Virus record (IMG/VR): IMGVR_UViG_3300048672_000075
Location: 1 to 27,190 of that record
Length of the DNA: 27,190 nt
Source of the DNA: a virus
Strand: one strand, 5' to 3'
A program made the position numbers and the translations under genes. Shown here one piece after another: positions 4,904-26,045 of the stretch (position 1 is the stretch's first letter; each line of letters opens with the position of its first letter). The notes below the pieces were generated by a model. It saw nothing but the letters and a program-made list of their open reading frames with translations. It was not told where the DNA came from and did not search any database.

Positions 4904-5297
4904 AATTAGATACGGTGATTTAAATAATTCAGAAGATTTAAGAATACTTTTAAACTCACTAGAGATTGTAAAGAATAAAGGTAAAGAACGTTGGAATCCA
5001 GTTGATATTATCAATGCTATATATACTGGAACAACTGCCTTTCTCATTGGAGATAATAACAAATATTGTCTAACTTTTTATACTAAATGTGAATACGGTA
5101 TAAATATATTTTGGGCATGGACTGTTTATGGAGATGGTTCTAATATGGGTGATAAATACATGGACGATATTAAGGATCTTGCAAGATCATTAAACTGTAC
5201 AGAAATGAGGTGGGCTAGTAAGAGAAAAGGATATGCTAAGACAATAAGTAAAGTTCAAGGTGAAGTTCACCAAGTAGAATATAAAATACAACTATAG
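4884..5297 (+). CDS. Acetyltransferase (GNAT)-like phage protein
   Basis: 137 aa. The central and C-terminal part (FWAWTVYGDGSNMGDKYMDD, then a helix, then MRWASKRKGYAKTI) resembles the small GNAT-fold proteins that many podoviruses carry near terminase and portal, including the T7 gp13-like group, where a helix of the 'lAr..gc..irw.s.R.Gy' type follows the central strands. The acetyl-CoA loop is not clearly visible, so a catalytic role is uncertain; a structural or assembly role is as likely. The ATG at 4884 has GGAA upstream; an alternative ATG at 4893 has GGAG close by. It overlaps terL by 20 nt. Confidence 0.5.
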   Translation: MEIMGGKIRYGDLNNSEDLRILLNSLEIVKNKGKERWNPVDIINAIYTGTTAFLIGDNNKYCLTFYTKCEYGINIFWAWTVYGDGSNMGDKYMDDIKDLARSLNCTEMRWASKRKGYAKTISKVQGEVHQVEYKIQL

Positions 5298-5306
5298 GAT
5301 AATAAG

Positions 5307-7637
5307 ATGGCAAAGAAAATTACTGCCGATTCATTGGTTCAATATATTGATAGAGAACTTTCTCAATCAACTAATTATAATGATAAGATTTCTGCTGAAA
5401 GAACCAAAGCATTAAAGTATTATAATAAACAACCTTACGGTAATGAAAAGAAAGGTAGAAGTACATATGTATCTTCAGAAGTATTTGAAACAATCTCTTG
5501 GGCATTACCACAGATTATGAAAATATTTTCAACATCTGATACTATCAAATTTGATGCTAGTAAACCTGAATATAAAGAATCAGCAGAGATGGCAACAGCA
5601 TATGCAAACTATGTTATTAACAAAGAGAATCCTGGGTTCTTAATTCTTCATGACTTTTTCCAAGATGCTCTATTACAGAAAAATGGTTTCTTAAAGATTT
5701 ACTATGATAAATCAGATTCATTTGAACGTGAAGAGTATAGTGATTTAACTGATTTAGAATTAACTTTATTGGTTCAAGACCAAAATGTAGAAGTATTAAC
5801 TCACGACGAAACAACAATAGTCGATCCTGTATCACAACAACCTATTTCAACTAAGCACGACGTAACAATTAAAAGAAAACTTAAATCAACAGGTGGTTCG
5901 ATTAAGATTGAAAATGTTCCTGTAGAAGAAGTAATTGTTTCTAAATTATCACGTTCATTAAATTTAGATGATGCACCATTCGTTTGTCATAGAGTAAAGA
6001 AAAGTATTAGTTGGTTAAGACAACAAGGTTATAAGATTCCAGACGATATTAACGATGGATCAGATGCTCCAACTGATTATTCATCAGAAAAATTAACAAG
6101 AGATTATCAAGATGGTAATTACTCATCCGCCAACGATGATGAAATTAATGCTGATCCTTCAACTAGATTAGTTTGGGTAACAGAAGCATATTTTAAAGTA
6201 GATTTCGATGGTGATGGTATTGCTGAACAAAGAAAAGTAACGAAAGTTGGTAGTACAGTTTTAGTAAATGAAGAAGTACATATTCAACCATTTGTTACAA
6301 CAAGTCCATTCCCTCAATCTCATAAGTTTAATGGTATTTCAATGGCAGATATTGTCACTGATTTACAATTATTAAAGTCTATGTTAATGAGAGCTATGTT
6401 GGATTCTTATGCCTTTAATATCAATCCATCTAAAGCAGTAGATATTTCTAAAGTAGTTGACGTAAATGATTTATTAGATACAAACCCTGGTAACTTTATT
6501 AGAATGAGAAGTTCACCAGCTGAATCTATTATGTCCTTACCATCTTCTGGTATTGGTGATTCAACCTTTAATCTTTTACAGTACGTTGATGATATTGCAG
6601 AATCAAGATCAGGTGTTAGTAAAATGACACAAGGTATTGATAAAAATGTATTCAATAAAACAGCAACTGGTACACAAGCTATTATGTCGGCATCACAAGA
6701 GAAACTAGCATTGATTGTTAGAATATTTGCTGAGACAGGGTTAGCGAATTTGTATAAGAAGATTATTCAATTAGCTTCTAAGTATTCAGATGGTCCTGAA
6801 TTGATTGAGATGCATTCACAATTTGTTGAAGTTAATCCGATGGATTGGAAACACCTTAAAAATATATCAGTTAATGTAGGGACAGGTAGTCTTGATTCAG
6901 CTCAGGAAATGAATAACCTTAATAATATTTTAAGTATTCAAGAGAAAGTAATGTCGTCACAGAATCCTTCATTAGTTTCTATGATTGACCCTTTGAAGAT
7001 ATTCAATAGTATTAGTGATTTAACGAAATCAATGGGATATTCAAATCCTTCTGTGTATTTTAATAAGCCAGGTGGACAAGAATATACACAAATGGTTCAA
7101 TTTATGCAATCTCAAGTACAACCACCACCTATTGATCCTAATTTAGCATTAGTAGAAACACAAAAACAAGCTAATGAACAAAATATGTTGATTAAAACTG
7201 CTGAATTTGAATTAGATAAGTTGAAAGCTGATAGAGAGTTTGAATTGAAAAAATATGAAATTCAACTTAAATATGAATTAGAGTTAGCTAAATTGTCAAA
7301 TATAGACAGTGGAGCTGTTATGGCATCACAAATAGCTCAAGTTGGTAATTTAAATCCAAGTAGTGAATTATTATCAACATCTGAAATAAATAACTTAACT
7401 AAAGTATTGGATGAAAATCAAATGAACAATGGACAAACTTCATTATATGCACAACTTATTAGTAGAAGAGAACAAGAAAATGCATTCTTAGAACAAGAAA
7501 GACAAAAACAGAAAGAACAAAGTGATAATATGTTAAGTATGATTCATGAATTAAATTCTAGAATAAATAAACCTAAAAAAGTAGTAAGAGATGAAATGGG
7601 TAGAGTAATTGGTTTAGCTATTGATGATGGAGCATAA
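5307..7637 (+). CDS. Portal protein, P22/SU10-like
   Basis: 776 aa. Near residues 50-125 it shows the portal signature of podoviruses: a helix with ETISWALPQIMKIF, then Asp-rich segments and DFFQDALLQKNGFLKIYYD. Residues 299-308 (DFDGDGIAEQ) form a loop that recurs in this portal group. About 618-663 is a long charged coiled-coil, which would lie in the crown or barrel, and the tail is Gln/Glu/Lys-rich. It would form the dodecameric ring at the head vertex that docks terminase and later the adaptor. It follows the GNAT-like gene by 9 nt with AGGAT before the ATG, in the expected TerL-portal order. Confidence 0.88.
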   Translation: MAKKITADSLVQYIDRELSQSTNYNDKISAERTKALKYYNKQPYGNEKKGRSTYVSSEVFETISWALPQIMKIFSTSDTIKFDASKPEYKESAEMATAYANYVINKENPGFLILHDFFQDALLQKNGFLKIYYDKSDSFEREEYSDLTDLELTLLVQDQNVEVLTHDETTIVDPVSQQPISTKHDVTIKRKLKSTGGSIKIENVPVEEVIVSKLSRSLNLDDAPFVCHRVKKSISWLRQQGYKIPDDINDGSDAPTDYSSEKLTRDYQDGNYSSANDDEINADPSTRLVWVTEAYFKVDFDGDGIAEQRKVTKVGSTVLVNEEVHIQPFVTTSPFPQSHKFNGISMADIVTDLQLLKSMLMRAMLDSYAFNINPSKAVDISKVVDVNDLLDTNPGNFIRMRSSPAESIMSLPSSGIGDSTFNLLQYVDDIAESRSGVSKMTQGIDKNVFNKTATGTQAIMSASQEKLALIVRIFAETGLANLYKKIIQLASKYSDGPELIEMHSQFVEVNPMDWKHLKNISVNVGTGSLDSAQEMNNLNNILSIQEKVMSSQNPSLVSMIDPLKIFNSISDLTKSMGYSNPSVYFNKPGGQEYTQMVQFMQSQVQPPPIDPNLALVETQKQANEQNMLIKTAEFELDKLKADREFELKKYEIQLKYELELAKLSNIDSGAVMASQIAQVGNLNPSSELLSTSEINNLTKVLDENQMNNGQTSLYAQLISRREQENAFLEQERQKQKEQSDNMLSMIHELNSRINKPKKVVRDEMGRVIGLAIDDGA

Positions 7638-7639
7638 GA

Positions 7640-9433
7640 ATGATTACATTTAGAGATAGATATAAGACAACAATAACTAATGCTCCTTCAACTTTAGGTG
7701 ATTTTGTTATTTCGACGGCTTATTTGGATTATCAAACCTTTGATACTAATGATAATGGTTTGTTATTTGACGTTGTAATTACTGATGGACCTACAACTTG
7801 GGAAATTAGAAAAGCTTGTACTTATAATCATTCAACACACACTTTAAGTAGAGGAACATTTAGTGATAGTTCTTCAGGATTACCAATTGATTTAACAAAT
7901 AATGCTATATTAGCTGTTACTTTATTAGCAGAAAGAGCATTACCTGTAACTATTACTAATCCTGTATTAGATCAAACTATTGTTTTTAATGGAACTGACT
8001 TTGTAAATGCTCCAGCACCACCATCTTCTTATACACAAGTTTTAAAACATTTGGTTAAGAATGATTCAGGTATTGCATTGACTAAAGGACAAGCAGTTTA
8101 TATTTCTGGAGCTAATGGAACTAATATATTAGTAAAGTTAGCACAAGCAAATACTGAATTGACTTCAAGTAAAACCATTGGATTATTAGAAACTGATTTA
8201 GCTGTAAATGGAATTGGGTATGTTGTTGATCATGGTTTATTAACTGGAACAGGTGGTGTACCTTTAAATACATTAGCAGCAACAATTGGTGATGCCGTTT
8301 GGTTAAGTCCAACAACTGCTGGTGGATTATTATTTGGATTAGCAAATAAACCTCATGCACCAAATCATTTAGTATATTTAGGTGTTGTAACTAGAGTACA
8401 TGGAGTAAATGGTGAAATAGATGTAAAAGTTCAAAATGGATTTGAATTAGATGAATTACATGATGTAGCTATAGTTACTCCAACTAACAATGATTTTTTA
8501 GTTTATGAAACTTCTACAACTTTGTGGAAAAATAAACAATTGACATCAAGCAACGTAACAACTGCATTAGGATATACACCATATAATAGTACAAATCCAA
8601 ATGGTTATACAACAAACGTTGGTACTGTAACAAATACATCAGGAACTGGACCAATTTCTGTTGCTACAGGAACAACTACACCTGTAATTAGTATTTCACA
8701 AGCTAATTCAACAACAAATGGATATTTAAGTTCAACCGATTGGAATACATTTAATAATAAACAAAATACTTTAAGTGCTGCTAATTCAACTACAAATGGA
8801 TATTTAACAAGCACTGATTGGAATACCTTTAATAACAAGGGTGCTCCTTATACATTACCAACTGCATCTAATACTGTATTAGGTGGAATTAAAGTAGGTA
8901 CTAGTTTATCAATCACAGCAGGTGTATTAGATGTAAATAGTGTAACTTCAGCACAGATTATTACAGGATTAGGATATACTCCTTATAATAGTACAAATCC
9001 TAATGGTTATACAACTAATGTAGGGACAGTAACTAATGTATCTGCATTAACTTTAGGTACAACTGGCACAGATATAAGTTCAACTGTAGCAACTGGAACA
9101 ACAACTCCTGTAATTACATTGAATATTCCGACTGCAAGTGCAACTAATAGAGGAGCTTTATCTTCAACTGATTGGACAACATTCAACAATAAACAAAACA
9201 CCTTATCTGCCGCTAATTCAACAACAAACGGATATTTAACTAGCACTGATTGGAATACCTTTAATAATAAAGGAGATCCATACACTTTACCTACTGCATC
9301 TAATACAGTATTGGGTGGAATTAAAGTTGGTACTGGATTATCTATCGACGTAAATGGAGTTTTAAATGCTTCAGGTGGTGGCGGTGGAATTGATTTACCA
9401 ACACTTCATACATTAACTTTAGGATATTACTAA
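7640..9433 (+). CDS. Fibre-like virion protein with tandem repeats, 597 aa
   Basis: Residues 1-110 match the N-terminal region seen in many phage head or tail fibres: 'RDRYKTTITNAPSTLGDFVI', a WEIRK strand and TLSRGTF. A beta-rich middle follows (about 120-280). The C-terminal 290 residues hold two copies of a 134-residue unit with the phrases LGYTPYNSTNPNGYTTN, NGYLSSTDWNTFNNKQ and TASNTVLGGIKVGT, then a poly-Gly hinge and a short end LGYY. Repeats of this kind are common in trimeric fibres. Sitting between portal and scaffold it could be a head fibre or a tail fibre. It starts 2 nt after the portal stop with GGAG upstream. Confidence 0.65.
   Translation: MITFRDRYKTTITNAPSTLGDFVISTAYLDYQTFDTNDNGLLFDVVITDGPTTWEIRKACTYNHSTHTLSRGTFSDSSSGLPIDLTNNAILAVTLLAERALPVTITNPVLDQTIVFNGTDFVNAPAPPSSYTQVLKHLVKNDSGIALTKGQAVYISGANGTNILVKLAQANTELTSSKTIGLLETDLAVNGIGYVVDHGLLTGTGGVPLNTLAATIGDAVWLSPTTAGGLLFGLANKPHAPNHLVYLGVVTRVHGVNGEIDVKVQNGFELDELHDVAIVTPTNNDFLVYETSTTLWKNKQLTSSNVTTALGYTPYNSTNPNGYTTNVGTVTNTSGTGPISVATGTTTPVISISQANSTTNGYLSSTDWNTFNNKQNTLSAANSTTNGYLTSTDWNTFNNKGAPYTLPTASNTVLGGIKVGTSLSITAGVLDVNSVTSAQIITGLGYTPYNSTNPNGYTTNVGTVTNVSALTLGTTGTDISSTVATGTTTPVITLNIPTASATNRGALSSTDWTTFNNKQNTLSAANSTTNGYLTSTDWNTFNNKGDPYTLPTASNTVLGGIKVGTGLSIDVNGVLNASGGGGGIDLPTLHTLTLGYY
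8567..9345 (+). repeat. Two-copy in-frame repeat of about 402 nt in the fibre gene
   Basis: Unit 1 starts at 8567 and unit 2 at 8969, exactly 402 nt (134 codons) apart. Both begin with codons for LGYTPYNSTNPNGYTTN and end with TLPTASNTVLGGIKVGT. Inside unit 1 the phrase NGYL(S/T)STDWNTFNNK occurs twice, so there is a shorter repeat within the longer one. Synonymous differences are many, so the duplication is not very recent or the copies are kept alike at protein level. Confidence 0.85.
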
Positions 9434-9434
9434 T

Positions 9435-9851
9435 ATGGCAAAAACTTATACAGCACCAATGGCACAAACCATTAACAATTCAACAGCAGTTTTAACTACA
9501 GCTACTGGTGGTATTACGACTGATAGTCCAACTAATGCTTTACTTCTTTTTACAGCAGGTGTAGAGGGTTCTATAGTTACAGCAATCGGAGCATTACCAA
9601 GAGCAACGATTACAGCAACAGCTTTATACTTATTCAGTTCTGAAGATTCAGGAACAACTTTACGTTTAATTGATTCTGTACTTATCCCGGCATATACTTA
9701 TGCAACTACAACAGCAGTACCTGAAACATTCTTTACAAGTTATTCTGAGGATTATCCTTTAAGATTAAGTGCAAATGAACGTTTATATGTAGCTACATCA
9801 GTTACTTTAGCATCAGGAATTGTAGTAGAAGCAAGAGGAGTAGATTACTAA
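9435..9851 (+). CDS. Small beta-rich virion protein, 138 aa
   Basis: Not assigned to a named family. The composition is Thr/Ala/Ser/Val-rich with alternating strands. The C-terminal half (LYLFSSEDSGTTLRLIDSVL, then YPLRLSANERLYVATSVTL) resembles small jelly-roll-like accessory proteins found beside phage fibre genes. No signal peptide or membrane helix is seen. It lies one base after the repeat fibre and its stop overlaps the next start (TAATG at 9850-9853), so it is probably made together with the two fibre proteins and may decorate or anchor them. Confidence 0.6.
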   Translation: MAKTYTAPMAQTINNSTAVLTTATGGITTDSPTNALLLFTAGVEGSIVTAIGALPRATITATALYLFSSEDSGTTLRLIDSVLIPAYTYATTTAVPETFFTSYSEDYPLRLSANERLYVATSVTLASGIVVEARGVDY

Positions 9852-12289
9852 TGAGAAGTAACTTACCAGTTTTAAAGAAAGAAAAAAAGAATGATTATTA
9901 TTGGGCTAGAGATTTATTAGTTAATGGTATCACTGTTGGTAGAGGTGGTGGTTGGTTACGAAGTACAGCAATTGGTGAGATGGCACTTGGAAATATTATT
10001 GGTAGTAAGGTTACTGCCACTGATTATACGGCAATTGGGTATTCAGCTCTAAGATATGCAAATAGTAACTATCCTGGTAATACAGCAGTAGGGTCATATG
10101 CCCTATCAGTATGTGCACAAGGAAATAATACAGCAGTTGGAAATGGTACTTTAAAATCCTGTGTAGGTGGAAATAGTAATACAGCAGTTGGATCTGGTAG
10201 CTTACAAACTAATGTATCAGGATCAGCAAATACTGCTTTAGGTGCATTTACTCTATCCAGTGCTACTTCAGTAAATAATACAGCTATTGGGTACTATTGC
10301 TTGGGAGCAACCACATCAGGAATTGGTAATACTTCTGTTGGTAGTTATTCAGGTTATTCAAATACAACTTCATCATATAATATATTTTTAGGAGGTTACG
10401 CTGGTTATACAGCTACGACCGGCGGAGCTAACTCATTCATAGGTTATTATTCTGGTGCTTTAACTACTGTTGGTGCTGGAAATACAGCGTTAGGTTATTA
10501 TTCATTTTACTCAAATACAACGGGTTCAAATAACTCATTCATAGGTTATTATGCTGGTTATAACCAATTAGCAGTTTCAAACCAAGTAGGTATAGGGTAT
10601 GAAGCACTTAAAGGTTCAATTACACCGGCAAGTAATACAGGAACTAATAATACAGCTGTTGGTCATCAAACTTTATTTAGTAACTCATCAGGTGGTAGTA
10701 ATACGGCATTAGGATATGTTGCCCTAAAATCAAATACAATTGGAAATAATAATACAGCAGTAGGTTATTCTTCTCAATTTGCAAATACTACTGGTGCTGG
10801 TAACGCATCTTTAGGAACAAATACACTAGCTTCAAATACTACCGGTGGTAGTAATACTGCATTAGGGTATGGAACACTTTACTTAAATACTACTGCTAGT
10901 AGTAACACGGCAATAGGTGCTTTGTCACTTTACAATAATACAGGATCAAGTAATACAGCTGTAGGTGCTTCATCACTTTATATAAATTCAACAGGAAATT
11001 ATAACACTGCATTAGGATATGGAGCTCTTTATTCAAATACGACTACAAGTAGCAATACAGCTGTAGGTTATAGTGCCCTTTATGCAAATACAACAGGCGG
11101 TAATAACGTATCTGTAGGTTATAGTGCCCTTTATGCAAATACAACAGGTGGTAGTAATACAGCAATTGGATCAAGTGCTCTTAATGCAAATACAACAGGT
11201 TCAAGTAATACAGCTATAGGTACTGCAGCACTAGGATTTAATATAATTGGTAACAATAACACAGCTACTGGTTATAATGCCTTAAATGTATCAACTGGAT
11301 CTAATAATACTGCCAATGGATTTTTCTCACTTAAAGCAACTACAACTGGTGGATTCAATGCAGCATTTGGTGATTATTCTTTATATTTTAATACAACTGG
11401 AACACAAAATACAGCATTAGGTTCTGCATCATTAAGAGCTAATACTTCTGGAAATAATAATGCAGCCGTAGGATATTTTTCATTATATTCCAATACTACT
11501 GGTTATTCCAATACAGCAGTAAGTTATAGTTCCTTATATTCTAATACAATTGGTATAGGTAATACAGCCGTAGGTAATAATTCTATGATTTCTAGCGTAT
11601 CTGGAAATAATAATGCTACTATAGGTGATGAATCATTAAGATCTAACACTACTGGAAATGATAATGCTGCTTTAGGATCAAATGCATTAAGATCTAATAC
11701 TACTGGTATTAGTAATACAGCAGCTGGTAAATTTGCATTATATTCTAATACTACTGGTAATTATAATATTGGATTAGGAAATAATGCTGGTTTTAATATT
11801 TCTACTGGTGCAGCGAATATAGTAATTGGTGATTTAAATTCTACTGGTGTTTCTGCCCCAGCATTTAATATTACAACTCAAAATAATTACATTAGTATGG
11901 GTTCAACAGCTGTAACAAATGCTTATATTCAGGTTGCTTGGACAGTTGTATCTGATGCTAGAGATAAAATGAATTTCAAAGAAGTTCCTCATGGTTTGGA
12001 TTTCGTTAATAAATTAAAACCTATTCAATATCAATTTAAGATAAATAGAGATATTGAGGAACCAACAGGTGATATTCATTATGGTTTCAAAGCACAAGAC
12101 ATATTGGAATTAGAAGGTGATAATTCAGTTATTATTGACACTAAAGATACTGATAAATTACGATATAAATCAGATAATTTAATACCTGTATTAGTTAAAG
12201 CTATTCAGGAACAACAATCTTTGATAGATAGCCAGAAAATTTTAATAGATAGTATAAATAAACGATTAGAAACTTTAGAAGGAAAATAA
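9851..12289 (+). CDS. Fibre/spike protein with NTAVG repeats and C-terminal S74 chaperone
   Basis: 812 aa. After a short N-terminus that is possibly for attachment (about 1-35), residues about 40-670 are tens of imperfect repeats of about 17 residues of the form NTAVGYSALYANTTGGS. This pattern predicts a trimeric left-handed beta-roll as in YadA-type heads. The last 112 residues are an intramolecular chaperone of the endosialidase type (Peptidase_S74). SDARDK at 701-706 supplies the catalytic Ser701 and Lys706 at the usual +5 spacing, and the protein ends in a coiled-coil. The chaperone should drive trimer folding and then cleave itself off just before Ser701. Translation is coupled by TAATG to the gene before it. 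The ligand is unknown. Confidence 0.85.
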   Translation: MRSNLPVLKKEKKNDYYWARDLLVNGITVGRGGGWLRSTAIGEMALGNIIGSKVTATDYTAIGYSALRYANSNYPGNTAVGSYALSVCAQGNNTAVGNGTLKSCVGGNSNTAVGSGSLQTNVSGSANTALGAFTLSSATSVNNTAIGYYCLGATTSGIGNTSVGSYSGYSNTTSSYNIFLGGYAGYTATTGGANSFIGYYSGALTTVGAGNTALGYYSFYSNTTGSNNSFIGYYAGYNQLAVSNQVGIGYEALKGSITPASNTGTNNTAVGHQTLFSNSSGGSNTALGYVALKSNTIGNNNTAVGYSSQFANTTGAGNASLGTNTLASNTTGGSNTALGYGTLYLNTTASSNTAIGALSLYNNTGSSNTAVGASSLYINSTGNYNTALGYGALYSNTTTSSNTAVGYSALYANTTGGNNVSVGYSALYANTTGGSNTAIGSSALNANTTGSSNTAIGTAALGFNIIGNNNTATGYNALNVSTGSNNTANGFFSLKATTTGGFNAAFGDYSLYFNTTGTQNTALGSASLRANTSGNNNAAVGYFSLYSNTTGYSNTAVSYSSLYSNTIGIGNTAVGNNSMISSVSGNNNATIGDESLRSNTTGNDNAALGSNALRSNTTGISNTAAGKFALYSNTTGNYNIGLGNNAGFNISTGAANIVIGDLNSTGVSAPAFNITTQNNYISMGSTAVTNAYIQVAWTVVSDARDKMNFKEVPHGLDFVNKLKPIQYQFKINRDIEEPTGDIHYGFKAQDILELEGDNSVIIDTKDTDKLRYKSDNLIPVLVKAIQEQQSLIDSQKILIDSINKRLETLEGK
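11061..11148 (+). repeat. Recent 51-nt unit duplication within NTAVG repeats
   Basis: A 37-nt stretch at 11061-11097 recurs without change at 11112-11148, a spacing of 51 nt (17 codons, one protein repeat). Other repeats in the gene match at protein level but differ in synonymous positions, so this pair looks like a recent expansion by slippage or recombination. Confidence 0.85.
12253..12260 (+). promoter_or_regulatory. TATAAATA box at the end of the S74 fibre gene
   Basis: Exact TATAAATA inside the last codons of the fibre gene, 30 nt before the ATG at 12291. The predicted start near 12266 would give a leader of about 25 nt containing the AAGGAA ribosome binding site. Its coding position makes chance occurrence more likely than for the intergenic copies, but the distance to the next start codon is the same as theirs. 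Confidence 0.35.
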
Positions 12290-14591: not shown

Positions 14592-15563
14592 ATGGCACTT
14601 CAAGCTGCAACACATACATATAACGAAATTGGTACAAGAGAAAATTTATCAGATTTGATTGCAAATATCTCACCTACTGATTGCCCATTAACTAACTTAT
14701 TGAGAAAAGATTCAGCTACTAATACATATACTGAATGGCAAATGGATGCATTAGCACCAGCTGCCTCAAATGCTCAATTAGAAGGTGATACAGCTCCATC
14801 TGCTACATTTGGTGCTACTACACGAGTTGGTGGTTATACTCAAATCTTTGCTAAATCAGCTACTGTTTCAGGTACTGCACAAAATACTACTAAAGCAGGT
14901 AGAGGCAAAGATGAAATGGCTTATCAATTAACGAAGAAAACCAAAGAGTTGAAACGTGATATTGAATGGGCATTTTTAAACAATGCTACACAAAATGCTG
15001 GTAATACAACAACTGCTCGTCAAACAAGAGGTTTAAATGGTTGGGTTGATTCTAACTACTCAATTGGTTCTGGTGCAACAATGCCAGCATATTCAACCAA
15101 CACAGCTCGTACAGCAGCTGGTAACAGAGCTATCACAGAAACTTTATTGAAATCAGTAATTCAACAAGTATATTCTGCTGGTGGTGATCCTGATATTATT
15201 ATGGCAAACCCAATTCAGCGTCAAGCAATTTCAGGGTTTAGTTCATCTAATACAAGATTTCAGGATGTTTCTAACAAAACATTGGTTTCAACTATCTCGG
15301 TATATGAAAGTGATTTCGGTACATTGAAAGTTGTTTCTAATAGATTCCAAGATTTAACATCTGGTTCAACAACTTATACTGCTAACCAAGGTACAGTTTA
15401 TGTATTAGAATCAGGTAAATTGGCATCAGCATTTTTGAGAAACTTTACCGTTAAAGACCTAGCTGTTACAGGTGACTATGAAGCTAAAGAAATCATTGCA
15501 GAGGTTGCACTTAAAGTAGATGCAAATAATGCAAATGGTTCTATCAGAGATTTAACACAGTAA
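14592..15563 (+). CDS. Major capsid protein, SU10 type (HK97 fold)
   Basis: 323 aa. It shows the pattern of the SU10 major head protein family: an N-terminal TYNEIGTRENLSDLIANISP, then the TPL-like 'DCPLTNLLRK', EWQMDALAPAASNAQLEGD, an E-loop region rich in Gly and Thr (GGYTQIFAKSATVSGTAQ), a long helix (ELKRDIEWAFLNN) and the strand-rich A domain with GGDPDIIMANPIQRQAIS near 197-214. It assembles the icosahedral shell around the scaffold. Codons are regular, the ATG has AAAGGAA upstream, and the gene has its own long leader with promoter-like box and hairpin, as expected for the most abundant virion protein. No protease or delta-domain is visible. Confidence 0.93.
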   Translation: MALQAATHTYNEIGTRENLSDLIANISPTDCPLTNLLRKDSATNTYTEWQMDALAPAASNAQLEGDTAPSATFGATTRVGGYTQIFAKSATVSGTAQNTTKAGRGKDEMAYQLTKKTKELKRDIEWAFLNNATQNAGNTTTARQTRGLNGWVDSNYSIGSGATMPAYSTNTARTAAGNRAITETLLKSVIQQVYSAGGDPDIIMANPIQRQAISGFSSSNTRFQDVSNKTLVSTISVYESDFGTLKVVSNRFQDLTSGSTTYTANQGTVYVLESGKLASAFLRNFTVKDLAVTGDYEAKEIIAEVALKVDANNANGSIRDLTQ

Positions 15564-16132: not shown

Positions 16133-16453
16133 ATGAAATTGATGGGTACAACTATGAATGAAGATGGAATCATAACAAAAACATATTATGACCCATCAAC
16201 AGCTACTTTTACTGATAGGATGTCAGTTGATTTAAAAGATTTAATGGAACGAAATCAATACGAAAGAAATAATTCAAGTAATGGATTTACTAAAGAAGGT
16301 GATATGAGAAAGATTGCCGAATTAGATATGCTTACAGTCCATAAATTGAAATCAGAATTTAATATTGATGTATTTAATAACGATGATATGCCTAGACTTA
16401 AACGTTGGTTAAAAGACAATAGAGGGTTTATGACTGTTAATGGTGGATTCTAA
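16133..16453 (+). CDS. Conserved-type small podovirus virion-region protein, 106 aa
   Basis: The start at ATG 16133 is chosen over the longer open frame from 16073 because it follows the previous stop by one base and has GGAG at 16122-16125. The product has the layout 'RNQYERNN....EGDMRKIAELDMLTVHKL', then 'LKRWLKDNRGFMTVNGGF'. I recognise this arrangement from small proteins between capsid and adaptor genes of podoviruses, with no established function. It is mostly helical and charged. Its stop overlaps the adaptor start (TAATG), so the two are probably made together and may act together at head closure. Confidence 0.65.
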   Translation: MKLMGTTMNEDGIITKTYYDPSTATFTDRMSVDLKDLMERNQYERNNSSNGFTKEGDMRKIAELDMLTVHKLKSEFNIDVFNNDDMPRLKRWLKDNRGFMTVNGGF

Positions 16454-17673
16454 TGATTACAACTTATGCTGAGTTAAAAACAAATATTGCTGACTTTATG
16501 CATCGTTCTGATTTGACAGGTGTAATTCCTACATTTATTCAATTAGCAGAATCAAAGATAGCAAATAATATTAAAGGTAGAAAATTAACTACAGTTTTGA
16601 CAACTACTTTGACAGCTAATACAGAAACTTTATCATTACCAGCAGATTATGTATCTATTCACTCAATTGTTGTTTTATCGACAACTAATAGTGTATGTTC
16701 GTTGATTTCTGATACTAAACTATCTGAATATAATGCTAAAGGTGATAAAGGGATTCCAAAATATTTTAGTATTGTTGGTGATACTATTAGATTTTCAGCT
16801 ATTCCTGATAGTGGTTATACTGTAAAAATAACTTATGAAGCAAATTTAATTAAATTAACTGATGTTGTGACAACGAATTTTATTCTAACTAATTTCCCAT
16901 ATTTGTATTTGTATGGTGCTTTAATTGAAGCTAGTATTTATTCAAATGATCCAGACCAAGTTCAATTCTACCAACAAAAATATAATGAAGCAATTGCTGA
17001 AGTTAATGCTAAATTTGATGAACAAGTATTACCACCTAATATAAATAGTAGTAAACTTACTAATTACACTGAATTAAAATCAAATATTGCTGATTTTATG
17101 CATCGTTCAGATTTAGATGATATTATCCCTACATTCATTCAATTAGCAGAATCAAAGATAGCAAATAATATTAAAGGTAGAAAATTATCAACTAGCTTGA
17201 CAACTACATTGACGGCTGGAGTAGAAACTTTAGCATTACCATTAGATTATGTATCTATGCAATCAGTAGTTATTTTATCTAATCCACAAGTTGTATGTGA
17301 GTTGATTTCAGACCATCAATTAGCTAATTATAATTCATTAGGAACAACAGGTATTCCACAGTTTTATAATATAATCGGTGATAATATCTATTTCTCATTG
17401 AAACCTGATTCATCTTATAGTGTAAAACTAACGTATGAAACAAAATTAGTTTCATTAAGTAACTTAGTACCAACTAACTTTATATTAGATAACTATCCAT
17501 ATCTTTATTTGTATGGTGCTTTAATTGAAGGTAGTATTTTTGCTAATGATTTAACACAGGTTCAATTATATCAACAAAAATATGATGATGCAATATATGA
17601 AGTTCTAAGAAAGTTTGGTGAAGAATCATGGTCTGGAAATGTCATGAGAAGTTTTAGTGATTATGTAGTATAA
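16453..17673 (+). CDS. Head-tail adaptor, internally duplicated
   Basis: 406 aa made of two copies of one domain of about 200 residues. Copy 1 (1-200) starts ITTYAELKTNIADFMHRSDL, and copy 2 (201-406) starts TNYTELKSNIADFMHRSDL. Each has FIQLAESKIANNIKGRKL, a LPxDYV strand segment, and near the end FPYLYLYGALIE or YPYLYLYGALIE plus a QQKY helix. The single domain matches the SU10-type phage adaptor family (about 200 aa), which forms the ring under the portal. Here the two copies are fused in frame. The ATG overlaps the previous stop (TAATG). Each copy keeps all the conserved blocks, so both are probably functional. Confidence 0.82.
   Translation: MITTYAELKTNIADFMHRSDLTGVIPTFIQLAESKIANNIKGRKLTTVLTTTLTANTETLSLPADYVSIHSIVVLSTTNSVCSLISDTKLSEYNAKGDKGIPKYFSIVGDTIRFSAIPDSGYTVKITYEANLIKLTDVVTTNFILTNFPYLYLYGALIEASIYSNDPDQVQFYQQKYNEAIAEVNAKFDEQVLPPNINSSKLTNYTELKSNIADFMHRSDLDDIIPTFIQLAESKIANNIKGRKLSTSLTTTLTAGVETLALPLDYVSMQSVVILSNPQVVCELISDHQLANYNSLGTTGIPQFYNIIGDNIYFSLKPDSSYSVKLTYETKLVSLSNLVPTNFILDNYPYLYLYGALIEGSIFANDLTQVQLYQQKYDDAIYEVLRKFGEESWSGNVMRSFSDYVV
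16453..17673 (+). repeat. In-frame tandem duplication, period exactly 600 nt
   Basis: The two halves of the adaptor gene align at a constant offset of 600 nt (200 codons) over the N-terminal and middle parts. A 51-nt block at 16537-16587 is identical at 17137-17187, including synonymous sites, while flanking regions differ more. The identity could reflect a moderately recent duplication or later gene conversion within the gene. Confidence 0.9.
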
Positions 17674-17689
17674 CAAAAAGGAATAAATT

Positions 17690-19171
17690 ATGGCTTTAGA
17701 AACAGCACAATATATCAATCAATTAAACCAATTAAACCCTGCTGGTGCTGATTTAGTTAGTACAGCAGATGACCATATTAGATTGATTAAATCAACTCTT
17801 AAAAATTCATTTCCTATGGTTTCAGGACCTGTTACTATTTCAAATGATGCACTTAATTCTTTAGAATTTTTAGTTGATATTGGAACAGCAGATACTTATG
17901 TTGTAAATCCTATATTGCCTTGGGCAGCATATGCTTCTGGTAAATCATTTACATTTAGAGCAAATAACTCTAGTTTGACTAAAAGTCCTACAATCAATGT
18001 AAGTTCTTTAGGTGCTGTACTACTAAAGGATTGTAATGGTAATCCAGCAATAATTAAGGCAAATGGAATTTATAATCTTAGTTATTATGGTACTTATTTC
18101 ATAGTTAAAAATTCTACATGTGATTTTATAACAGATACTATTAATTATACACCTAGTACATCAACAAAGGTTATGATAAGAAGTACAGATGGATTATCTT
18201 TATCAGCTGGTTCAGTTGAAAGATTAACTATTGATTCAACAGGTAAATTTGGTTTAAATACTACTACTCCAGCATATGATTTAGATATTGTAGGACAAGA
18301 TATAAGATTACAAAGTAATACAGCAAATTGTTTTTTACATATTGGTCCTCAAACTTCTCCAGGTGTATTTTATGGTAGAGGCTCAACAATGGGATTTTAT
18401 AGTACCTCATCTAATTGTGAAGTAACAGTTAGTAAAGATGCCACAGATCCATATGTTAATATTATTTCTGGTAATGGACTAACTAGTAAAATTAATTTTG
18501 TTGTTAATGGGGCAGTAAGATCTGTTATTGATGAAAGAGGTAGATTACAAATAGGTTATACTACTGGTTTAGCTACTGTAAATATTTCTAGTAAAGATGA
18601 TCCTAGTGCTGGGTTAGCTACTTTTATTGAATTAAAAAACACTTCTACTGGTGCAACTAATATTAAAAAGTATGTTAGAATGGATGCTACTGGATCATTA
18701 GAAATAAGAAATTCAACTAATGATACTACGTTATTTAAAATTTCAGATGCTGGAATTATAACTACAGTGCCAGGGGCTATTTCATCAGCTTCTTTAGGTT
18801 CAAGTACATCAACTGCTGTAACTCAACCAATAAATGATAAATCAACTAAAATTGCTACAACTGAATTTTGTAATAGAGATTCTAATACATCGATTGTTGA
18901 TTCAAACTATTGTTGGTTTATGTTACCAAATGGGGCTATTATGTTATGGGGAACACATGCACTTGGTGGATTACAATCTTGGTCTATAGATGTATCTACT
19001 ATTAATGCTGCTTGGGTTGGTAAGACTGTAGTGAATGTTACTGCAAGTCATAAAGGTCCAGAAATATTAGCTTATTCTGCATTAAAAGTTGATTATATCA
19101 ATTCAACTCTTACGTTAAGAAACACTTATAATGCAGTAACTACTGCATGTTTCCAAGCACTAATAGTATAA
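17690..19171 (+). CDS. Tail fibre protein, 493 aa
   Basis: The first 50 residues carry the common fibre-anchor pattern 'YINQLNQLNPAGADLVSTAD' then DHIRLIKSTLKNSFPMVSG, used by many podo- and siphovirus fibres to attach to the tail. The middle (about 150-390) is beta-rich with the phrases VERLTIDSTGKFGLNTTTP and DPSAGLATFIELKN, typical of trimeric shaft segments. It includes STAVTQPINDKSTKIATTEF (about 375-395), a widespread fibre motif. The C-terminal 90 residues (from NYCWFMLPNGAIMLWG) look like a small receptor-binding tip domain. There is no S74 chaperone. AAGGAA precedes the ATG. It lies between the adaptor and nozzle genes. Confidence 0.8.
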   Translation: MALETAQYINQLNQLNPAGADLVSTADDHIRLIKSTLKNSFPMVSGPVTISNDALNSLEFLVDIGTADTYVVNPILPWAAYASGKSFTFRANNSSLTKSPTINVSSLGAVLLKDCNGNPAIIKANGIYNLSYYGTYFIVKNSTCDFITDTINYTPSTSTKVMIRSTDGLSLSAGSVERLTIDSTGKFGLNTTTPAYDLDIVGQDIRLQSNTANCFLHIGPQTSPGVFYGRGSTMGFYSTSSNCEVTVSKDATDPYVNIISGNGLTSKINFVVNGAVRSVIDERGRLQIGYTTGLATVNISSKDDPSAGLATFIELKNTSTGATNIKKYVRMDATGSLEIRNSTNDTTLFKISDAGIITTVPGAISSASLGSSTSTAVTQPINDKSTKIATTEFCNRDSNTSIVDSNYCWFMLPNGAIMLWGTHALGGLQSWSIDVSTINAAWVGKTVVNVTASHKGPEILAYSALKVDYINSTLTLRNTYNAVTTACFQALIV

Positions 19172-19180
19172 AGGATATTT

Positions 19181-20734
19181 ATGATAGTATCATTCAATAA
19201 CTTAGCTGGAGCTGGTCTTGTAAAGGATGTCAATAGTGAATTATTACCTGTTGATCCTTTTGTATGGACTGAAGCAACCAACGTAAGATTTAAAGATGGT
19301 TCAATTAGGAAGATAAATGGAAGTGAGGAAATTGTATCAACTCCAATTCCTCCACATTATATTGCATTCATATCTCCTAATAATGAAATGTATTTTATTT
19401 TAGTTTTTAGTAGAACAGAGGTACAATGTTATTATTCTGGTGCATGGACAAATATAACTAGAACATCTGGTAATTATCAGTATTCAAATGTTAATTGGCA
19501 ACATACAGTTATCAATACATTTCCAATATTTAATAATAATTATGATAGACCACAAGTTTGGAAACCAGCAATGCCTGGAACACCTTTAATAGATTTACCA
19601 TCATTTCCAGACAATATGTATTGTGGAATTATTAGAGCATTTAAATCTCATTTAATTGCTGGTAATATTACTGATAATGCCACTAATTATCCATCAAGAA
19701 TATTATGGTCTGGAAGTGCTTTGCCAGGTGAATTACCGACAACATGGGACATTTCTGATATTACAAATGATGCTGGTTATATGGATTTATCAGATACGCC
19801 TGGTGAAATCATTGATATGAAGTTATTAGGTGACAATCTAGTAATCTATAAGAAAAAAGCTATGTATCTAATGTATTACATCGGTGGAAATAATATATTC
19901 AGTATCAAACAGATATTCAATAACGTTGGTGCTGTTTCTAAAGATTGTGTATGTGATGTAAAAGGTGGTCATTTGGTAGTTACAGAAGATGACATTATTA
20001 TACATGATGGTAATAGTTATAAATCTATTGTTGACCAAAGATTACGTCAAACAATATTTAATAATATAGATCAAATATCATTTAGTAATTGCCATGTAGT
20101 TCCTAACTATAAACAGAATGAAGTTTGGTTATGTATTCCAACTTTTAATGCACTTATAACATCTGTTTATATATTTAATTATGAAACAAATGTTTGGACT
20201 ACAAGAACAGTATTACCAACTGAATGTTTATCAGTTATGCCTTTAGATATTTCAACAGCATCTGAATTTAATTTAAATCCTGATACTTTTAATAGTGCTT
20301 CTTATATTTACGATACTTCTAAATACTATAAAAATAAGTATTTTATGGTAGAAGCTGATTTAACTCATTGGAAATTAGTTTTATTAGATTCAACCAGTAA
20401 TCAAGAAGTTGGAGTTAATATGCTTTCAACTGTTGAACGTAAGAATATCAATTTATCAGATGATGAATCTATTAAGATTGTAAAAAGGATTTATCCAAAG
20501 ATGAGTAAATTAAGTGGTACAAGTAATATTGTAAATTTTTATATTGGAACACAAATGATGAGAAATGAACCTATTATTTGGTCTCCAGCTATGCCATTTG
20601 ATATTGTTACTGGTTATAAATTAGATTTCTTTGCTACAGGCAGATGGATTAGTATTAGAATTGAATCAACTACTGATATTGAATGGACTATGGAAAATTT
20701 TGAACTTGAAATTTCAAGTGGAGGTAAATGGTAA
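19181..20734 (+). CDS. Tail nozzle-like protein, 517 aa
   Basis: The N-terminus (NNLAGAGLVKDVNSELLPVD, then WTEATNVRFKDGSIRKINGS) and the repeated short strand blocks with W/Y-rich turns (NVNWQHTVINTFPIFNNNYD) fit the beta-propeller tail proteins of podoviruses, the group of P22 gp10 and the nozzle of SU10-like phages. The block DNLVIYKKKAMYLMYYIGG, then VGAVSKDCVCDVKGGHLVVT, is the usual core of this group. It would form the distal tube below the adaptor. AAGGAT is upstream. Its stop overlaps the next start (TAATG), coupling it to the large S74 fibre. The exact family is inferred from pattern, not from a search. Confidence 0.72.
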   Translation: MIVSFNNLAGAGLVKDVNSELLPVDPFVWTEATNVRFKDGSIRKINGSEEIVSTPIPPHYIAFISPNNEMYFILVFSRTEVQCYYSGAWTNITRTSGNYQYSNVNWQHTVINTFPIFNNNYDRPQVWKPAMPGTPLIDLPSFPDNMYCGIIRAFKSHLIAGNITDNATNYPSRILWSGSALPGELPTTWDISDITNDAGYMDLSDTPGEIIDMKLLGDNLVIYKKKAMYLMYYIGGNNIFSIKQIFNNVGAVSKDCVCDVKGGHLVVTEDDIIIHDGNSYKSIVDQRLRQTIFNNIDQISFSNCHVVPNYKQNEVWLCIPTFNALITSVYIFNYETNVWTTRTVLPTECLSVMPLDISTASEFNLNPDTFNSASYIYDTSKYYKNKYFMVEADLTHWKLVLLDSTSNQEVGVNMLSTVERKNINLSDDESIKIVKRIYPKMSKLSGTSNIVNFYIGTQMMRNEPIIWSPAMPFDIVTGYKLDFFATGRWISIRIESTTDIEWTMENFELEISSGGKW

Positions 20735-23610
20735 TGGATAAAGGTAATATATCTTATAATAATCTTCCTGTTCCATCAGATGCAAATGCTTTACCATCAT
20801 ATTTGAACAATGAGTTGGTAACTATTGGTAATACTATTGATTTAATTAATCAAGCAACATCGGGGCTTACTAACAGTCAATCAGATGCAGTAGCAACTTA
20901 TAACAATAAGATGACTGAAATTGATAATAGTTTTAAAGTAACAAATACGGTTGTATCAAGAACTATTGCTAGTGTAGAAGAGGTAAATGCTTTATTAAAT
21001 ACTTCATTAACAAAGATTGATACATCTTTAACTAATGTAACGGCTTTATCAAAACAAGCAATTGAATCAGCAGATAAAGCTAATCAAGATATAGCTACAA
21101 TATCAGATGATGGATATATTGCTCAATATGAAAAATCAAACTTATTTTTGGATTGGTTGACAATTTATAAAGAGTATCCTGATATTATTGCTAAGGCATC
21201 ATTATATAAAGCTAGTGCAGATGCTTATACGTCTGCGTATTTAGTATTAGTTAATTATTTGACATCATATCCGATAGAAATAGACCAAATACCAACTACA
21301 GGTGTTGAATGGATAGCAAATCAATATAATATTCCAGTTGATAGAGTTTATTTTAGAAGTGTTTTTTCTGATTATTATAATAAAAGACAAGAATTATTTA
21401 ATTCTATAACTGAAGAAAATAAAACAGATGCAAAATTACTTGCTAATAAACAAATTACTTTGAGTACAGATATAACAAATATTTTAGATTCAATATCAGT
21501 TATTGTAAGTGATAATATCATTTCTCAAGGTGAAAAAAATACGATATTTATTGATTGGAAAACAATTTATGATGAAAAAAATGGTATTGTAGCACAAGCA
21601 TTTGCTTCTAATGTATCTAGTGTTGATTATGAAGCATCTTATGCTACGTTATCTGCTTATTTGATTGCTTCTCCGATATTGATTGAGAATCCACCAACTA
21701 CAGGTAATGCTTGGTGTTCAGATCCTTCTAATATTTCAATTGATGGAACTGTGTTTAGAAATAATTTTACTGATTATTACTACAGAAGACAGGCATTATT
21801 AAATGCTATTGCTAATGCTGCTCAAACATCTGCTAATACTGCTTTAGATAATATCAATTATATTTCTAGTGATGGTTTTATTACACAGGATGAAAAACCA
21901 GCAATATTTGTTGATTGGAAAACAATTTATGATGAAAGAGCTGATATTGTAAGTAAAGCAACTGGTGCAGGTGTATCAAGTACTAATTATACTAATGCAT
22001 ATAATACATTAGCTAATTATTTAATTGCATCACCTATATTGATTGAGAATCCACCAACTACAGGAAGTGCTTGGTGTTCTAATAGTAGTAAAATAACCAT
22101 AGTAGGAACTACATTTAGAAGTAATTTCACAAATTATTATAATGAAAGACTATTATTATTGAATGCTATTGCTAATGCAGCACAAATAGATGCAGATAAT
22201 GCACAAGCATCTGCAAATAGTGCTTTAACAAATATCAGTTATATTGTCAGTGATGGTTATCTTACACAGGATGAAAAACCTTCAATATTTATCGATTGGA
22301 AATCAATTTATAGTGAAGCACAAGATAATGTAAATAAAGCTATTGGTGCTGGTGTATCAAGCACTAATTATACTACAGCATATACTACATTATCAAATTA
22401 TTTGACTTCTTCACCAATATTAATTGAGAATCCACCAACATCAGGAAATGCTTGGTGTTCTGATAGTAGTATTATATCGATAAATGGTACAACTTTTAGA
22501 AATAACTTCACAAATTATTATAATGAAAGACAATTATTATTGAATAATATTACAAATGCAGCTCAAAATGCCGCAGTAAATGCTCAAACTACTGCTAATG
22601 CAGCTAATAATGCAGCTGCAGATAGATTATCAAAATCTGTGAATAATATATTATCTGGAACTGGGGCAATTATTGCTGGTAACTTAGTTATTAATAGTTC
22701 TGGTCAAAGAACATCTGGTAATGGTGTAGCTATGACATCTAATGGATTAGTAGGTTTTACATCAGCTGGTGCATCAACATTCGCTATAGATACTGCTGGT
22801 AATGCTACTTTTTCAGGTACATTAAGTGCAGCAACTGGTAATTTTGCTTCAAGATTAAGTAATAATATGAGGATTACTATCAATGAGAATAATTCTCATG
22901 AGATTCAATGTTATTCAACTGCTATACCATCATCTCCTTTTTTAACTATTGGAGAACAGTATGTTGGTGCTGATACTGTGGGTATTTATAGTAATTTAGT
23001 TAATTCTGGTATTAAATACGGTAATTGGGTACAATTACGAAGATTTGCTGCTACTGAGGGTATGGTTGTATCTGGTCAGGGTTGTACATTACATTTAGGT
23101 GTACAAGATGCTAGTGATAACTTTACAACCCTTAGTAGTGCTTATAGTACGGGTAGTTTTTCTATTGGTGTTTCTAATGGTTCTTCAGCTGCATTTACTC
23201 AGAATGCTAAGAATGTTACAATAAATAATGCTAGTTATGCTATTCAAACTACTGGTGATGTATATGTTTCTGGAGCAATTACAGCTACAGGAAATGTAAC
23301 AGCTTATTCAGATAAACGATTGAAGACTAAAATTAAAGCTATTACTGATCCTATAACTAAATTAATGTCTTTAAGCGGTAATACTTTTAATTGGAAAAGA
23401 AAGTTCGCTAATAAGAATAATATGTCAAAAGAAGGTATAGGTACAATTGCTCAAGAAGTCCAAGCTATTTTCCCTTCTTTAGTTCAAGAGGACAAAGATG
23501 GTAATTTAACAGTTGCTGAATCTAAATTAGTACCTTTACTAATAGAAGTTTGTAAAAACCAAGAGTTAAGAATTAGAGCTTTGGAGAAAAAAGATGACTC
23601 TGCCAAGTAG
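20734..23610 (+). CDS. Large tail fibre/spike with four repeat modules and S74 chaperone
   Basis: 958 aa from ATG 20734, chosen because it overlaps the previous stop (TAATG) and has GGAGG at nine bases; an ATG at 20728 is an alternative. The N-terminal 120 residues are helical or coiled-coil (QKxAxESADKANQDI-like). Residues about 123-620 hold four copies of a module marked by 'SDG(F/Y)(I/L)TQDEKPxIF(V/I)DWK' at its start and PILIENPPTTG, AWCS and FTxYYNERxLLLN at its end. A beta shaft follows (GNLVINSSGQRTSGNGV, ATFSGTLSAATGNF). The last 100 residues are an S74 intramolecular chaperone with SDKRLK (Ser859, Lys864), which should release itself after trimerisation. The protein overlaps the fibronectin-III gene by 17 nt. 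The role is host binding. Confidence 0.85.
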   Translation: MDKGNISYNNLPVPSDANALPSYLNNELVTIGNTIDLINQATSGLTNSQSDAVATYNNKMTEIDNSFKVTNTVVSRTIASVEEVNALLNTSLTKIDTSLTNVTALSKQAIESADKANQDIATISDDGYIAQYEKSNLFLDWLTIYKEYPDIIAKASLYKASADAYTSAYLVLVNYLTSYPIEIDQIPTTGVEWIANQYNIPVDRVYFRSVFSDYYNKRQELFNSITEENKTDAKLLANKQITLSTDITNILDSISVIVSDNIISQGEKNTIFIDWKTIYDEKNGIVAQAFASNVSSVDYEASYATLSAYLIASPILIENPPTTGNAWCSDPSNISIDGTVFRNNFTDYYYRRQALLNAIANAAQTSANTALDNINYISSDGFITQDEKPAIFVDWKTIYDERADIVSKATGAGVSSTNYTNAYNTLANYLIASPILIENPPTTGSAWCSNSSKITIVGTTFRSNFTNYYNERLLLLNAIANAAQIDADNAQASANSALTNISYIVSDGYLTQDEKPSIFIDWKSIYSEAQDNVNKAIGAGVSSTNYTTAYTTLSNYLTSSPILIENPPTSGNAWCSDSSIISINGTTFRNNFTNYYNERQLLLNNITNAAQNAAVNAQTTANAANNAAADRLSKSVNNILSGTGAIIAGNLVINSSGQRTSGNGVAMTSNGLVGFTSAGASTFAIDTAGNATFSGTLSAATGNFASRLSNNMRITINENNSHEIQCYSTAIPSSPFLTIGEQYVGADTVGIYSNLVNSGIKYGNWVQLRRFAATEGMVVSGQGCTLHLGVQDASDNFTTLSSAYSTGSFSIGVSNGSSAAFTQNAKNVTINNASYAIQTTGDVYVSGAITATGNVTAYSDKRLKTKIKAITDPITKLMSLSGNTFNWKRKFANKNNMSKEGIGTIAQEVQAIFPSLVQEDKDGNLTVAESKLVPLLIEVCKNQELRIRALEKKDDSAK
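21100..22600 (+). repeat. Four in-frame modules of 120-134 codons in the large fibre gene
   Basis: Modules start at about 21100, 21502, 21862 and 22243, each at the codons for (I/V)SD(D/N/G). Module 1 is the most divergent and modules 3 and 4 are the most alike. The same codons for ILIENPPT occur in modules 2-4. The end near 22600 is approximate, where an Ala-rich helix begins. Confidence 0.85.
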
Positions 23611-24594: not shown

Positions 24595-24804
24595 ATGCAA
24601 ACTCATGGTGGAAAAGGTAGTACACAAAGACCTACTGCAAATAGAAAACAATTTGAAGATAATTGGGATAGGATATTTGGTAAGAAAAAGAAAGAATCAG
24701 ATATTTTAAAACAAAATGAAATTGAAATAGTAACTAAGCATTTAATTGAAACAAATAAATTGAATGATGATTTGAATGAATTAAATTTATTAGGAGAAGT
24801 ATAA
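24595..24804 (+). CDS. Small conserved-type phage protein, 69 aa
   Basis: The start MQTHGGKGSTQRPTANRKQF, then NWDRIFGKKKK, follows a pattern I recognise in short podovirus and siphovirus proteins ('GGKGS..RP....F..nwd.IFGKK') near the late genes; its function is not established. The C-terminal half is a charged helix (IVTKHLIETNKLNDDLNELN). GGAGA lies upstream, and the stop overlaps the next start (TAATG). With the two following paralogs it forms a unit behind the TATAAATA at 24567. Confidence 0.75.
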   Translation: MQTHGGKGSTQRPTANRKQFEDNWDRIFGKKKKESDILKQNEIEIVTKHLIETNKLNDDLNELNLLGEV

Positions 24805-26045
24805 TGTCATTTGGTGGAGGCGGAAGTCAACCAGCTCAAACAACTGTTGAAGATACAAAAACAAATCAGACACCATATGCTCCTGCTATTCCGTATTTAA
24901 TGCAGGCAATGAAAGATGCTGCTAATATCTATTCACAAGGATCACAAAAATATACTCCTTGGTCTCAAATAGCTGGATTTACTCCTGAACAATTAGCTGC
25001 TCAAAAAGGTATTACTGATTATGCCAATAGTCCTGAAACTCAACAGTTTATTGGTAATACACAAAATGCTGTAAGGAATCAATTAACTGGTGGAAATAAT
25101 CAATATGGTCAATTAGCTAATCAAGCTGGTAGTGTATTGACTGGATTTGTTGGTAATAATAATCTTCAAGATAATGCTGGTGTATTAAATAACTTTGCTT
25201 ATGGAGATACATCAAATCCATATAGTGATGCTAAAGTAAATAGTTCTATGCAAGAATTATCAAATAGTTTTATGGCAAATACATTACCTACACTTAGAAG
25301 GGCTGCTATTGGTCAAGGTACTTATGGTTCTAGTAGAAATGCTTTAGCTGAAGGTAGTGCATTAGGTGCATTAGATGCTCAGATGCAAGGTGCTGCTAAT
25401 AACGTTTATATGAATGATTATGCTAATACTGAGAATAATAGATTAGGTGCTTTAAATCAAATTGCTATGCAACAAAATGCTCAAGCTACAAATGCAGGTA
25501 ATTTATATAATCAAAGTGCTGGTAATAATTTAACAAATATTGGTTATGGATTACAGAATTATAAGAATGCTTTAGCAATGCCATTAGATATGATGAATCA
25601 AACTTATCAAGTAGGTAGTGATATTTATCGTCAAAAACAAGCAGAATTATCTGATGCTACTAATAGATGGAATTATGAACAGAATGCACCTTGGGATAAT
25701 ATTTCAAGATTTAAACAGTTAATAGATCCTACGTCATCTTTAGGTGGTTCAGGTACATCTAATTCTACTGCATCTCAATTTGCACCAAAAACAAGTATGA
25801 CTGGTAATATTATGGGTGGATTATTACAAGCAGCACCTATGGTATTTGGAATGATGGGTGGTGGTAGTTCAGCTCCAAGTGGATCAATAGGTTCAGGATT
25901 TTCCGGTGCTTTATCTCCTTCATCAATGGGAATTAGTAATGCTAGTATTCCATCTGCTCCAGCAATTGGTGGTAGTAATTTTGGTGGTGGAATTATGAAT
26001 AATACATCTTGGGGTATGCCTTCATCATTCGGATGGGGTGGTTAA
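24804..26045 (+). CDS. Putative DNA-ejection (internal virion) protein, paralog A
   Basis: 413 aa, rich in Gly, Asn, Gln, Ala and Ser and without Cys. It begins MSFGGGGSQPAQTTVED. Near residue 46 it has GSQKYTPWSQIAGFTPEQLA. The middle is helical with NNNLQD and TYGSSRNALAEGSALGAL segments, and near 279 it has the block QAELSDATNRWNYEQNAPWD. The C-terminal 100 residues are Gly/Ser/Met-rich with a hydrophobic stretch (GNIMGGLLQAAPMVFGMMGG). Proteins of this composition and with this WxxEQNAPW-type block lie in the ejection-protein position of short-tailed phages and are thought to enter the cell with the DNA. The TAATG start is coupled to the small protein before it. Confidence 0.6.
   Translation: MSFGGGGSQPAQTTVEDTKTNQTPYAPAIPYLMQAMKDAANIYSQGSQKYTPWSQIAGFTPEQLAAQKGITDYANSPETQQFIGNTQNAVRNQLTGGNNQYGQLANQAGSVLTGFVGNNNLQDNAGVLNNFAYGDTSNPYSDAKVNSSMQELSNSFMANTLPTLRRAAIGQGTYGSSRNALAEGSALGALDAQMQGAANNVYMNDYANTENNRLGALNQIAMQQNAQATNAGNLYNQSAGNNLTNIGYGLQNYKNALAMPLDMMNQTYQVGSDIYRQKQAELSDATNRWNYEQNAPWDNISRFKQLIDPTSSLGGSGTSNSTASQFAPKTSMTGNIMGGLLQAAPMVFGMMGGGSSAPSGSIGSGFSGALSPSSMGISNASIPSAPAIGGSNFGGGIMNNTSWGMPSSFGWGG

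Follow-up and report, generated by a model that had tools for sequence, protein, structure and literature searches.

A duplicated and fused adaptor gene in the neck module of a short-tailed phage

The window is the whole stretch of DNA that we analysed, positions 1 to 27,190 of the IMG/VR virus record IMGVR_UViG_3300048672_000075 (27,190 nt). It carries the module of an uncultured short-tailed phage, in the order terminase (3392-4903), portal, capsid, a 106-aa gene, adaptor, fibre and nozzle. Two further contigs serve for comparison: L001 (IMGVR_UViG_3300021438_000150), which has the same 406-aa adaptor fusion with 89% protein identity to the window, and L004 (IMGVR_UViG_3300043410_001305), which has one 206-aa adaptor, the same gene order, and a capsid protein 85% identical to that of the window. 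The nearest solved tail by sequence is that of Pseudomonas phage Pa223, with matches to portal, nozzle, fibre and adapter. The genes in question are these:

5307..7637, + strand: portal protein (SU10_portal), 776 aa against 775 aa in L004; matches Pa223 9nwm (E 1.7e-94)
14592..15563, + strand: major capsid protein (SU10_MCP, by Pfam)
16133..16453, + strand: 106-aa gene just upstream of the adaptor gene, whose start it overlaps; also in L001 and L004
16453..17673, + strand: double adaptor gene, 406 aa, one open frame with two PF24175 domains; fusion also in L001
16453..17052, + strand: copy A, residues 1-200, a four-helix bundle plus beta dock domain, its own C-terminal tail replaced by a linker (from Pfam, AF2 and the alignment to L004)
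17053..17673, + strand: copy B, residues 201-406, a whole adaptor with C-terminal tail, its old start codon now AAA (Lys) (from Pfam, AF2 and the codon alignment)
17690..19171, + strand: fibre gene just downstream, 493 aa here and 493 in L004; its first 59 residues match the Pa223 tail fibre 9nxk (E 1.4e-12)
19181..20734, + strand: nozzle protein, 517 aa in both window and L004; full-length match to the 6-copy protein of 9nwi (9nwi_Y, E 9e-66), and to VP1/SU10 nozzles in part

A sequence-only reading of this DNA had described an SU10-type adaptor present as two complete copies in one polypeptide, with a 600-nt period and 51 nt fully identical, and both descriptions hold. The Pfam family SU10_adaptor (PF24175) matches the whole protein with 193 bits, copy A with 107 and copy B with 91 (cut-off 27); coverage is 1-184 of the 194 model positions for copy A and 1-182 for copy B, so that both copies lie above the curated cut-off across nearly the whole model. 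They also match PHROG 2941 (virion structural protein, head-and-packaging class). The sole NCBIfam result, an arylsulfatase model, was sub-threshold and was set aside as a chance match. The gene context is likewise of SU10 type, with the adaptor inside a portal, capsid and nozzle module whose order is identical in L004. One domain per chain, as in all other members collected, is found in neither the window nor L001; two domains per chain is a departure in architecture, with the fold not lost. A profile search found no further adaptor match elsewhere in the record, which may be incomplete.

A repeat search returned a direct repeat 600 nt apart (16457-16756 vs 17057-17356, 77% identical). Compared in full (600 nt, 200 residues, no gaps), the copies share 73.2% of their nucleotides and 63.5% of their amino acids, and their nucleotide differences fall 53, 41 and 67 on the first, second and third codon positions. 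The doubled adaptor in 16453-17673 is far beyond chance, and the observation is real. The longest exact run between the copies occupies:

16537..16587, + strand: 51-nt identity tract in copy A
17137..17187, + strand: the same tract in copy B, at an offset of 600

This tract corresponds to codons 29-45 (helix 2 and just beyond) and is part of the match only. Codons ~20-45 have unusually few synonymous differences between the copies (permutation p 0.009 for the window, 0.0001 for L001), and this points to gene conversion or constraint acting locally; because synonymous changes are rare in codons 29-45, the 51-nt identity would reflect homogenisation or constraint more than recent duplication.

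A possible objection is that the double gene is an assembly or sequencing artefact, or in truth an unfused gene pair. Nothing beyond the repeat itself speaks for this, and we regard it as very improbable indeed. L001, an independent contig with ~88% DNA identity over the region (83% in copy A, 93% in copy B), has the fusion in the same frame, with the same junction and a linker of identical length, and differences specific to each paralogue are common to both contigs; assembly error is rejected on this ground. As to an unfused pair, the junction has no start codon: the codon alignment places AAA or AAG at the former start of copy B in the two fused-form phages, which also excludes a separate start of copy B at that codon.

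Relatives with one copy and with two, for which the sequence-only reading had proposed a search, were both found, in L004 and L001. The L004 adaptor is 52-55% identical to each window copy and is the closest single-copy relative among the matches listed. We collected 259 distinct near-complete adaptor ORFs, a sample drawn from IMG/VR, GTDB genomes and a few phage records; 257 are single-domain and two, those of the window and L001, are two-domain. No other fused adaptor was seen among the IMG/VR or GTDB loci listed in the sample, nor in the 152 phage records with a match, where the listed places are single-domain in length; each phage-record adaptor examined individually is one domain, about 205-225 aa long. 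Among the adaptors collected, the fused form is rare. One further candidate for a double-adaptor phage was rejected, the 61.9-kb contig IMGVR_UViG_3300025570_000015 (loci L252 and L270), which has two adaptors but also two portals, with one capsid match and different, unequal spacings, and is probably two phage genomes joined.

Two other features of the relatives are recorded here in passing. Between its scaffold and capsid genes L001 has a 193-aa ORF (2286-2867) that by eye resembles a homing endonuclease, and the window is without it. In another virus contig, IMGVR_UViG_3300033688_000038 (125 kb), positions 4600-10914 hold at least five genes for SU10-type major capsid proteins in tandem.

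MAFFT placed single-domain relatives as one block on the fused chain, never split across the halves. In the maximum-likelihood tree the four copies from the window and L001 form one group (100/97) whose sister is L004 (100/100); within it the B copies pair (100/100), and so do the A copies (94/71). This topology implies a single duplication and fusion, later than the split from L004 but earlier than the divergence of window and L001. The comparisons thus point to tandem duplication and in-frame fusion of a single-copy adaptor gene in the ancestor of both phages. There are 43 residues at which the two A copies agree and differ from the two agreeing B copies, and none with the reverse pattern; at the nucleotide level, 78 sites have the paralogue pattern, against 4 and 3 with the other patterns. 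A very recent duplication is excluded by these site counts, and the event predates the split of window and L001.

Between window and L001, copy A has dN 0.108 and dS 0.58 (dN/dS about 0.19), and copy B has dN 0.027 and dS 0.30 (dN/dS about 0.09). These values indicate purifying selection on both copies, stronger on copy B, with the protein of copy A evolving ~4x faster. Thirty-five columns are conserved in at least 80% of single adaptors, and each copy retains 28 of them; R18, D20 and L21, in the alpha1-alpha2 loop, are among those retained by both, and this loop has no fixed difference between the copies in window and L001. The fourfold higher dN of copy A would be in keeping with a nearly neutral fusion, where one copy fills the ring position and its partner serves as a tethered spare or as a docking domain for another fibre. 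We think this distinctly unlikely, since both copies are under purifying selection and retain family-conserved residues, and since the 51-75 nt of exact identity between them should favour deletion, yet two copies stand in both phages.

The halves meet at a short linker (AF2 boundaries):

17020..17064, + strand: linker EQVLPPNINSSKLTN, residues 190-204 (15 aa), connecting helix 4 of copy A with helix 1 of copy B

The linker is 15 aa in L001 as well. It stands in place of the C-terminal tail that the single L004 adaptor has and copy A lacks; the tail of copy B is present, and identical in window and L001. The lost tail of copy A, as read from these alignments, is the one clear asymmetry between the copies.

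We ran AF2 twice on the fused chain as a monomer, the alignment depth lying on copy A in one run and on copy B in the other. Mean pLDDT was 85-86, and both halves were predicted as adaptors, each a helix bundle with an inserted beta dock domain. Copy B matches the Pa223 adapter 9nwi_A with Z 19.9 and rmsd 2.6 over 202 residues; the copy A region gives Z 19.3 but rmsd 5.1, and the same model also gave matches mixing both copies. With pTM of 0.56 and 0.51, AF2 leaves the placement of A relative to B undefined.

The portal of a tailed phage is 12-fold and has to be joined to tail parts that are 6-fold. Identical adaptors bridge this step in solved tails such as that of T7, through two alternating conformations. 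Each nozzle platform of T7 is bound to two adaptor monomers; their alpha1-alpha2 loops contact the nozzle in two alternating conformations, and the portal is embraced by the C-terminal helix of the adaptor (PMC6702177). Adjacent SU10 adaptors have different docks because a pair binds one fibre trimer (PMC9509320), and in P-SCSP1u paired adaptors bind the fibre trimer unequally and make unequal nozzle contacts too (PMC10575957). Given such asymmetry between neighbours in T7, SU10 and P-SCSP1u, the adaptor ring already consists of six pairs. T7 gp11, KP32 TTPA and P-SCSP1u gp22 have a helix bundle plus fibre dock, as the window's adaptor does, but their subunits are identical and differ in conformation or contacts, whereas the window has two different domains, covalently paired. 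SU10 gp11 (PF24175; 7z47) and the Pa223 adapter (9nwi) show full-length homology with each half (family profile E about 4e-24 and 2e-24, respectively) and have neighbours of like kind (portal, capsid, fibre and nozzle); they have one domain per chain, against two diverged domains here, with copy A tailless.

We favour, with a probability of roughly one half (0.52), a neck in which six fused chains make up the usual ring of 12 domains, placed between 12-fold portal and 6-fold nozzle, so that the two unequal positions seen by the fibre trimer and the nozzle subunit are paired in advance. The A-B linker would join ring neighbours, and each chain would be, ready made, the pair to which one nozzle subunit and one trimeric fibre bind unequally in T7-type tails. 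With the pair held covalently, the A/B alternation would be permanent, where ordinary adaptors attain it by switching conformation, and the two fibre docks would be free to diverge; the tail corresponding to the portal-embracing element would remain in copy B alone. We prefer a single ring on four grounds: the length of the linker, the presence of nozzle-side and conserved residues in both copies, the unchanged partner genes, and divergence centred on the dock. Since in T7 the embracing C-terminal helix is directed towards the portal and the alpha1-alpha2 loop towards the nozzle, the two ends of an up-down bundle should both be on the portal side; a linker of 15 aa spans up to about 60 A, which should be ample to reach a neighbour in the ring. 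The lengths of portal, nozzle and fibre are nearly unchanged beside the single-copy L004 (776/775, 517/517 and 493/493 aa). Several points tell against a ring of six fused chains, among them the pTM values given above and the lineage share of the dock excess described below. Six of the twelve portal-embracing tails would be lost, which the portal would need to tolerate. In addition, PDB 9nwi, from the closest solved relative by sequence, contains 24 adapter chains and 6 nozzle chains, and the Pa223 tail may thus be other than a single 12-ring.

The divergence of the dock was examined over the following segments:

16576..16860, + strand: dock domain of copy A, residues about 42-136, containing 25 of the 43 fixed-difference residues
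17176..17460, + strand: dock domain of copy B, residues about 242-336, the counterpart of the copy A dock

Fixed differences affect 25 of 95 dock residues but 7 of 84 in the helix bundle (Fisher p 0.0017). The dock/bundle divergence ratio between copies A and B is 1.86 and 2.3, whereas 175 single-single adaptor pairs of similar divergence have a median of 1.23 and a 95th percentile of 1.70; when codons 20-45 are left out it is 1.70 and 1.77 vs 1.63. Measured against L004, the ratio is 1.9 for copy A and 1.27 for copy B. The dock excess is thus partly a lineage trait, and since the ratio of copy A to L004 is likewise high, the signal is only suggestive.

The same fused chains could be arranged otherwise. 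Twelve of them might form two stacked rings, one copy sitting on the portal and the other on the nozzle, which would make the neck one ring longer; stacked rings were the second option in the sequence-only reading, next to a ring of six chains. There is precedent in crAss001, where five 12-fold rings of adaptor-fold paralogues are stacked and R4 and R5 come from one gene (PMC10172136). Both crAss001 and the window have duplicated adaptor-fold proteins whose copies diverged; R1-R5 are encoded by separate genes in stacked rings, with 15-31% identity (PMC10172136), whereas the window has one fused gene with copies 63.5% identical, and not the several paralogous ring genes of the crAss type. The 24 adapters with 6 nozzles in 9nwi also fit stacking, as does the C-terminal tail being lost in copy A and retained in copy B. 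However, one ring height comes to about 46 A, if the ~23 nm barrel of five rings in crAss001 is representative, and to bridge that distance the 15-residue linker would have to be near full extension. Stacking should moreover make the axial faces diverge most, and we find a nozzle-side loop without fixed differences and equal numbers of conserved columns in the two copies. With the linker almost fully extended and the axial faces lacking clear specialisation save for the copy A tail, we rank stacked rings second, as a possible but doubtful arrangement. Given the alpha1-alpha2 loop, we do not favour the earlier suggestion of one copy specialised for portal contacts and one for nozzle contacts.

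Another arrangement starts from an ancestor that already had 24 domains in two rings, as 9nwi may have; fusion within each ring would then give 12 chains, six per ring. The 24:6 chain count in 9nwi agrees with such an ancestor, and the linker geometry favours joining in the plane of a ring, but T7, SU10, P-SCSP1u and DEV have 12 adaptors each, and we hold this course of events to be unlikely.

The adaptor protein itself is known, and the fused two-domain variant is what is new; the functional build of the neck we infer. The neck may plausibly be of a new build. If six fused chains do form the ring, this might well be the first covalently paired neck adaptor described in tailed phages, with a 12-fold homomeric ring turned into six hetero-pairs and the 12-to-6 step written into the sequence. 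The fused A-B adaptor and its close single-copy relative form a before-and-after pair, which bears on which residues distinguish the two positions, on whether covalent pairing allows the fibre docks to diverge, and on whether duplication leads to pairing within a ring or to stacked rings like those of crassviruses. On the practical side, the fusion suggests that adaptor rings tolerate covalent linkage.

Other genes of the window are also repetitive or duplicated. Within the head module, from portal to scaffold, 7640-12289 holds long repetitive fibre-type genes, as does L004; one of them encodes an 812-aa protein with a run of NTALG-type repeats and a chaperone-like tail at its end. Downstream of the nozzle gene, the protein encoded at 20728-23610 (960 aa) has four modules in tandem, each about 120-134 aa, within 21108-22575, spaced 402, 360 and 381 nt apart; the region after the modules ends in DKRLKTKIKAITDPITKLMSLSGNTFNW and by eye resembles a fibre chaperone domain. 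Finally, the genes at 24804-26045 and 26076-27161 are adjacent paralogues (36% identity over 315 aa, E 1e-42), the former matching PHROG 4287 (DNA ejection protein), which makes the pair the window phage's second case of a tandemly duplicated structural-type gene, here unfused.
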